DNA of 64,000 nucleotides from the NCBI RefSeq assembly GCF_000003815.2, contig NC_049983.1:9858779-9922778 (forward strand), in the 5' to 3' direction. Shown here one piece after another: positions 44,401-47,400 of the stretch. Position 1 is the first letter of the stretch; every line of letters begins with the position of its first letter. This DNA comes from Branchiostoma floridae (Eukaryota > Chordata > Leptocardii > Amphioxiformes > Branchiostomatidae). A program made the translations under genes and the position numbers. Under the pieces are notes generated by a model. The model saw nothing but the letters and a program-made list of their open reading frames with translations. It had not been told where the DNA came from and did no database searches.

Positions 44401-47400
44401 CAATATTGCACAGGTTACAATAGCAACTGGGATGAGCTTTGCAAAATGGAATGCATGTAAATGTAACTAGCACAGCAAAGAATATGATACAGTGACTACT
44501 AATACTAAGACTAAGAGCATAGTTGGCATCAAAAGTTATGACTTACATGTAGTGCTTTATGTAGACAATGCATAGCAACAATGTATAGGTTAGGGATAGA
44601 CTGGGAACAATAGTAGGGGCAATTATGTGAACATGAGGGGAAAATACGCACAATATGAAAAGAAGCTGTTCTAAAAGAAAAAGGTTTCCAGCTGTATGCC
44701 CATGCTATCTTTCTAGTCTATCTCTGACAGAAACTAGTACATAAGAGCAGATGCCTTGATACTACACAGTGCATGAATTCTACAAATGTAACACACAATG
44801 AGGGGAAAACAACACCAAAGAAATGGTCATGCAGTTTACATGTTATGACAATCCAAATGACATCACGACAGGATGATTACATTTGCTTGCAGTAACAGTG
44901 TAATAATAAAGACAAGATTGATATGAGATGGCAAAGATTTCTAAGCTAACACAGTAAAGAAAAAGTGCAAAATGTTGTTAAATGGGCTGTTACATAGCTT
45001 GTAACATGACTTTATAAGAGTTTTTTCTTGCTTTAGCATGACATTACACAATATACACATGCAAAACATCTGACTGGACATCAGCCAAACAGATCCTTTA
45101 CTATAAAAAGTTGTAAACTTGTACACGTTAGACCTGCCAGCTCAGTTTTTAACCAATAAAAAAACTAGTCTGCATATTTATTCCAATATCAGTACAATTA
45201 TTCCATGAATACATGTACATGTATGAGGCCCTCTCACCCTGGACATTTTAGGGCATTACAAATTTACATTTCTCATCTCTAATACTGGACCTGCATTTTG
45301 TACATGTTTCTGAACCATACTGATACAGGGCTGTCTCCAGCTTTAAATTGCTGTCTACCAATCATTGTTTTGGAAATCAGGAGCTCATACTGTCATTTTC
45401 AGCTTAGGCCATGAAGTTCAGATTTCAGATCTTGAAGTTCAGATTTTTGGGACAGGGTGAATTTTTGTATCAGTCCCAACAGGCCAATTTTTGTCCTTGA
45501 AACAGCCTTGTACTGAACATTTTCCAAAGTGTATCTAAAACTACATGTCTAAGTTTAAGTACAGATCTGTCACTTTGCCTTGGAGTTCAGATTTCAGATC
45601 TTGAAGATCAGATTTTTGGAACAGGATGAATTTTTCAATCTGTCCCAACAGGCAAATTTCTGTCCTTGAGACAGCCTTGTACAAAACATTTTTCGAAAGC
45701 ATTTCTATAAGTACAATACATGTCTAAGTTTGGGTTAACTATACAGATCTGTCAGACTTGTACTAGCTGTAACAAACCATACTCACCCTCGAACCACTGT
45801 CTATTTCTGAGTAGTCCGGCCGTAGCCATGCCCCTCTCCTTCTCTTCACTGCACGGAGAGGGGAGAAATTATGGGTTAGCCGGGATTAGCGAAACCGCAA
45901 GCACGGCAAGTGACCTACCTTGGAACCAGTGTCAATTTCTGAATAGTCGTGTCGGTGCCAGTTTCTCCTTCTCTTCACTGTGAACAGACGAGACACCAGG
46001 GGAAATTTACATGGACGCTGGTCGACAACAACAATACATTATACGTCCCATTGGTTTTACATCCATCCATTGCTGTAAACTATTGTAACAGTGATTGTCC
46101 CAATAGCGTCATAATGGTGGTAAAACAAAATCACAAAGTGTATTTCATACACATAAATGTCTACAATTATGTGGACAAAGAATTGTACAAGTCACTTCTT
46201 CATACTATCATAGTGTGTTCTGCTGAAATTGATACTTACATTTTGACAATGATGTATGAGAATTGATTGCACTGCTAACATTAAGCTCCAGTTTTGCATG
46301 TAATTACCCTAAGCGTTATGGATGCCATATGGCACCAAATTTGTTATACTGTATCGTACCTGACATCAAATTCGTACAAGTTTGTACGGTAAAATCAAAG
46401 GTAAATCATAATATTACTAAAAGTAAAACTCCCTCACTCAGTTTATTACATTTCATCATTCATTCAATGTTGCTGTCGAACATACAAATTACATACATTT
46501 TATGATTAAGTACTTAAATATTGACAATTTGACATCTACATTCCATGTATGTAAATTTCTTGTAGTCTATGTACTAGTTATTCACAAAACAATGATTACA
46601 GAAAATAACAAAGCTACATGAAATCAAAAGAAATCATGACCAAAAAAAAAAAAAACAGGAGACAATAAACAATGGTGTAACTTACAGACAAGAGGCCCGT
46701 GGAAGTTGGCACAGTTGGGACAGTGGTACTTGTCTATATCTGCTGCCTGGTGCTCTTCAACTCCCACACAGCTGGGGAGAAAGTTCAAGTTTTACTTTCA
46801 GTCAAAATACATACAGGTTCAGGTACATAGGGAAAAGTGCAAGGAATTATCGAAAGTAAGTTGTGTGCATTAGTACAATAATCACATGTTGTACCATAAT
46901 GAAACACTGGCTTTAACTTTGTGGTGATGCTGAAATCGTAAAAAATGTGAACATACATTAAAACCAATGCAACTGTGGAAGAATATCAAGCATTTCAAAA
47001 AGTATCATTTACTTCTTAGTTATGTGGGTGAAGCCACACATTTAGTATTCTCTACAGATATTCCACCCGACCAATCAAAACTCAGAAAAAATGGAACCTG
47101 TAGCATGCAGTCCACGTTTCCAGCTTTTTGATTGGCTAACATTCTGACTGTCTGGTGGATACGTCAGGGGTAAACCTATCAACGCACAGGTCACAAAATG
47201 GCACTCGGCAGCGCAGTATCACAAAAAGTAGTTGAAAATGCAGCAAGTTCAGAGCATCTAATCGGCTAAATAACAACATAAAAATGCCCCACAAAAAAAT
47301 ATTCTAGTATTCTGTCCAAGTTTTAGTGAAATACCTTCGATTATAAGCGAGAAAAATAGCCAGCGGAAGCTCGCGGGTTTTTTCAAGCAACGCAATACAT

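Follow-up and report, generated by a model that had tools for sequence, protein, structure and literature searches.

A candidate mutually exclusive exon pair in the PHD-JmjC linker of an amphioxus KDM7 gene

We identified two adjacent, homologous exons, A and B, that appear to encode alternative versions of the linker between the PHD finger and the JmjC domain of a KDM7-family gene, located on the minus strand of a 64-kb stretch of amphioxus DNA (the window). The sequence supports A/B as a pair with the hallmarks of mutually exclusive exons, and we consider it probable that the pair arose through an old tandem duplication of the KDM7 linker exon. Exon A would give the ancestral KDM7A-type protein, and exon B a protein with intact PHD and JmjC domains and an altered linker that is one residue longer and lacks NWHRH. 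Such a protein would most likely differ in how PHD and JmjC are arranged, in flexibility or in contact with the nucleosome, and would not adopt the PHF8 mode.

Results

The KDM7 gene and its linker exons

The gene model, built from the sequence and from alignments to human proteins, spans 48822 to 36446 and comprises 12 exons, with the A/B pair counted as one position:

48716..48822, minus strand: exon 1, inferred start codon, N-terminal half of the PHD finger
46686..46771, minus strand: exon 2, C-terminal half of the PHD finger; its donor, TCT/GTAAGT, is common to A and B
45919..45977, minus strand: linker exon A, 59 nt, KDM7A type
45849..45918, minus strand: intron between A and B, 70 nt, with two branch-like sites
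45787..45848, minus strand: linker exon B, 62 nt, predicted exon
43548..43606, minus strand: exon 4, last part of the linker and beginning of the JmjC region
42937..43097, minus strand: exon 5
42159..42300, minus strand: exon 6
39567..39765, minus strand: exon 7, JmjC, with the iron-binding HxD (TDFHVDFGG)
38911..39073, minus strand: exon 8, JmjC
38265..38352, minus strand: exon 9, JmjC, with the third iron ligand (GWIHAVL)
38002..38108, minus strand: exon 10
37510..37604, minus strand: exon 11, Jumonji helical domain
36446..36556, minus strand: exon 12, Jumonji helical domain; last exon in the model

The PHD, JmjC and Jumonji helical domains all scored above the Pfam cut-off in a search with isoform A. 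Against the PDB, the same isoform matched KDM7A best (3kv5, 661.6 bits), followed by PHF8 (624.0 bits) and PHF2 (584.2 bits), with KDM2A (300.5 bits) and the C. elegans KDM7 homologue (257.5 bits) further down. The motifs TDFHVDFGG and GWIHAVL, which we take to hold the iron ligands (His-x-Asp and His), align to 3kv5 with His-Asp-His kept. By domain order and best matches (KDM7A, PHF8 and PHF2) the predicted product is a KDM7 demethylase, as an earlier note on this DNA had proposed. The PHD-JmjC linker, where that note placed the pair, is indeed its location; the PHD finger is encoded upstream (exons 1 and 2) and the JmjC region begins in exon 4.

Both linker exons are internal, bounded by AG and GT, and of similar length; both enter in phase 1, end in phase 0 and carry an open frame. 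The junctions previously assigned to the pair (donor 46686, A 45977-45919, B 45848-45787, next exon from 43606) all proved right, and the 70-bp spacing, the equal phases and the identity of the first 14 exon bases were exact in the sequence; with the last three intron bases included, the identity extends to 17/17. In a codon alignment of 60 nt, the first base of which comes from exon 2, A and B show 13 nucleotide differences, and B carries one 3-nt insertion that adds a whole codon in frame. Fifteen of 20 aligned residues are identical, and 4 codons are changed synonymously. The middle of the exon does differ, as had been described (NWHRH versus GAWLRP), but the alignment keeps the W and the R.

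Comparison with the human KDM7A, PHF8 and PHF2 linkers

Human linker sequences were taken from the PDB search alignments and delimited from the basic start to the residue before (P)VQ/VKTG. Linker A equals that of KDM7A in length (20 residues each) and is identical to it at 16/20 positions; linker B, at 21 residues, is one longer and identical in 12/21 columns. The PHF2 linker, with 19 residues, shares 7 with A and 4 with B. PHF8 (17 residues) agrees with A in 6 and with B in 5 of 21 columns, with a score of 9 in each case. Placing B in the whole isoform instead of A changed the match by -18.3 bits against KDM7A, by -15.6 bits against PHF2 and by +0.3 bits against PHF8 (624.3 bits for B versus 624.0 for A). 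Relative to A, B has lost NWHRH, gained a proline and the extra residue, and kept KRRR and DYSEID.

On these comparisons A is a KDM7A linker, and B is most reasonably seen as a modified linker of KDM7A type. A linker of PHF8 type would be shorter than that of KDM7A and carry PHF8 sequence; with 21 residues versus 17 and a score of 9, B is not PHF8-like, and its length moves away from PHF8. Any effect of B may instead lie in geometry, flexibility or nucleosome contact.

Splicing of the pair

Only single inclusion leaves the reading frame open, through either exon 2-A-exon 4 or exon 2-B-exon 4. When both exons are skipped, a stop follows 13 residues further on, and when both are joined, TGA is the first codon past A, which confirms the immediate stop reported before. 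This TGA arises because the exon starts with TGAAGA and enters in phase 1, and it is therefore no added safeguard in itself.

At 70 nt, the intron between A and B is the shortest of the 12 in the model, the others ranging from 156 to 2393 nt. Short introns do get spliced in other animals. Both branch-like sites, CTAAT at +33 and CTAAC at +43 from the donor of A, lie under a limit of ~50 nt, which stems from vertebrate work and is applied here to a lancelet intron. Within the available text, PMC5740500 treats distances of <50 bp as a possible cause of steric interference, which applies to 57 clusters (9%), and a steric limit of about 50 nt is cited in PMC7969005. The positions of the branch-like sites lend weight to the view in the earlier note that the tiny intron disfavours joint use; the steric effect itself we infer. 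The spliceosome would connect exon 2 with just one of the two, A or B, since the donor of A and the branch sites of B would be too close together within the 70-nt intron, and transcripts with both exons or neither would presumably be cleared by nonsense-mediated decay.

Splice sites were scored with a position weight matrix (PWM) built from 10 other sites of the gene, with A and B outside the training set. On this small matrix the acceptor of B scored lowest of 12 (1.6) and that of A second lowest (3.7), the donor of A (7.1) exceeded only those of exons 2 and 9 (6.8 each), and the donor of B (12.3) was among the best.

We also considered an RNA hairpin as a switch between the exons and rejected it. 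Just ahead of B, a pyrimidine tract (CCCCTCTCC) can form a perfect 9-bp duplex with GGAGAGGGG within B (-17.6 kcal/mol alone); folding near the acceptor of B did not go beyond that of shuffled sequences (z -1.24, 35/300 as stable). The tract of A was the more buried of the two (unpaired 0.20-0.24 versus 0.45-0.53 for that of B), and replacing GGGGCA of B with AAC of A left the tract no freer (0.31 versus 0.50). The whole 231-nt region folded like its own shuffles (z -0.19).

Chance, age and constraint

To gauge how readily an exon-like copy occurs by chance, we scanned the introns upstream and downstream of exons 2 to 11 (20 scans, with A standing for the pair) for AG...GT stretches that have the correct frame open and differ from the exon by no more than 60 nt in length. 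Exon B scored 0.59 of the self-score of A, whereas the remaining 19 scans (no candidate in 4 of them) gave 0.01 at best, and 200 simple intron shuffles reached 0.09 at most. With both linkers as queries, tblastn located no third exon copy in the 64-kb window at E < 0.1 (the next match had 0.33), and a search for long inverted repeats around the pair returned just two 12-nt arms at 83%.

The similarity score of the exon pair, which included one extra shared base, was reached by 0/2000 shuffles. For the intron between A and B, the score against the intron after B was reached by 289/2000 shuffles and that against the intron before A by 113/2000; the latter similarity may be a faint remnant. The exons have thus kept their similarity whereas that of the flanking introns is close to background, which points to an old duplication and to constraint on the exons. 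In a neutral simulation, in which about half of the copies (0.487) gained a stop, such residue identity in an open frame had P = 0.0125; this evidence is suggestive, not strong. The excess of third-position changes alone was not significant (0.084) and, like the acceptors of B (weakest) and A (next weakest) on the small PWM, counts against the pair.

Alternative explanations

The earlier note held that this linker decides whether the JmjC domain reaches H3K9 or H3K27 when H3K4me3 is bound by the PHD finger, which agrees with two papers as far as their available text goes: PHF8 adopts a bent form that reaches H3K9 next to H3K4me3, whereas KDM7A is extended and does not (PMC4224472), and the linker is much longer in KDM7A and shifts specificity (PMC6001751). 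It went on to suggest that one lancelet gene may make both vertebrate activities by splicing; A would then provide that of KDM7A (H3K27) and B that of PHF8 (H3K9). The resemblance of A to KDM7A, the reported influence of the linker and the start of B with RRRG (KKRRG in PHF8) are in keeping with this proposal. However, A and B fit PHF8 equally poorly and B changes length in the opposite direction, which leaves the proposal without sequence support. Moreover, the vertebrate K9/K27 division is itself not clean in the accessible parts of two sources, with H3K27me2 among the PHF8 substrates in a PHF8 review (PMC11417953) and H3K9me1/2 given together with H3K27me1/2 as substrates in a KDM7A paper (PMC10558696). 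We therefore regard such a split of activities as very unlikely. A regulated choice of linker exon that switches which methyl-lysine KDM7 reaches beside H3K4me3, and that arose separately from the vertebrate paralogues through another linker chemistry (greater length, no NWHRH, an added proline), is conceivable but doubtful.

That B is a decaying copy, seldom or never used, would fit its low-scoring acceptor and its loss of the NWHRH that A has in common with human KDM7A; the frame is open, however, the donor is strong (12.3), the 3-nt insertion does not shift the frame and identity has been retained beside diverged introns, set against the 0.487 of neutral copies that gain a stop, all of which makes this unlikely. 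The pair could also act mainly as an expression switch, in which transcripts with both exons or neither are unproductive and the difference between the two proteins is of little consequence. Early stops from both joint use and skipping, inner splice sites that are weak by the small PWM, and the joining reads found in 83/377 human clusters with frame-breaking pairs (PMC5740500, available text) point that way. Yet B is open and keeps 15/20 residues, more than a poison exon needs, and the same text gives a frame break on joint use as usual in ordinary pairs (60% of human clusters), so that we judge a pure expression switch improbable. An assembly artefact, with two haplotypes placed in tandem, deserves hardly any credence. 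Lancelet genomes are highly polymorphic, and a run of N lies in the window near 24945-25217, but neither the intron between the exons nor those on either side are repeated, and a divergence of 13 differences and one insertion over 60 nt would far exceed that between alleles.

Discussion

An old duplication followed by mutually exclusive use, the reading we prefer, places A/B beside established pairs. As in the human mutually exclusive exon set (PMC5740500) and OGDH exons 4a/4b (PMC7969005), to judge from the accessible text of both, the two are neighbouring homologous exons of the same phase and similar length, joint use breaks the frame, and a short intron holds candidate branch sites <50 nt from the donor. 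Unlike those pairs, A/B is predicted from sequence, belongs to a histone demethylase and codes for an interdomain linker. The word PHF8 is absent from the main text of PMC5740500. Human KDM7A (KIAA1718, JHDM1D; 3kv5) has the same domain order and is the best PDB match of both isoforms; human PHF8 (3kv4) and PHF2 (8f8y) share family and domain order, and the linker of B resembles neither. At the WIH/YA motif the amphioxus enzyme has His like PHF8, not Tyr like PHF2.

The neuronal microexon of LSD1, in the available part of PMC11605454, is likewise a small-exon choice in a histone demethylase that has been reported to alter substrate preference, although it is an optional microexon and not a duplicated pair; that part of the paper describes no detectable H3K9 or H4K20 activity and a stepwise loss of H3K4 activity instead. 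Among the matches listed, titles and abstract openings do not describe the pair or splicing of the KDM7 linker, and a literature search combining Branchiostoma and KDM7 gave no match.

If B is used, A and B would constitute a natural enzyme pair differing only in the PHD-JmjC linker, with which one could test cleanly whether demethylase reach is set by the linker alone; the linkers between domains of chromatin enzymes would also be marked as targets of mutually exclusive splicing. On present evidence, the KDM7A/PHF8 split is not shown to be pre-figured by one gene.

Other features of the window

The intron between exons 6 and 7 of the same gene contains two further features. A 98-bp tandem array of 6 copies lies at 39700-40298 (minus strand), its last copy being the JmjC exon 39567-39765 itself. 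The five upstream copies repeat the start of that exon, and each includes a pyrimidine-rich stretch and an AG; since 3/5 read fully to SWVDNWFPD and then stop, they look like decoy 3' splice sites. The other feature is a retrotransposon remnant at 41067-41925 (minus strand), with Pfam reverse-transcriptase RNase H domains in 41185-41925, the part searched.

On the plus strand, positions 6850-10257 hold a 1136-aa open stretch with tandem cadherin domains and a FAT4-like Pfam match. A weak fibrinogen C-terminal domain match at 20584-20823 falls slightly below the Pfam cut-off (21.1 versus 22 bits), and an exon-sized stretch at 59375-59596 matches peptidase family M28.
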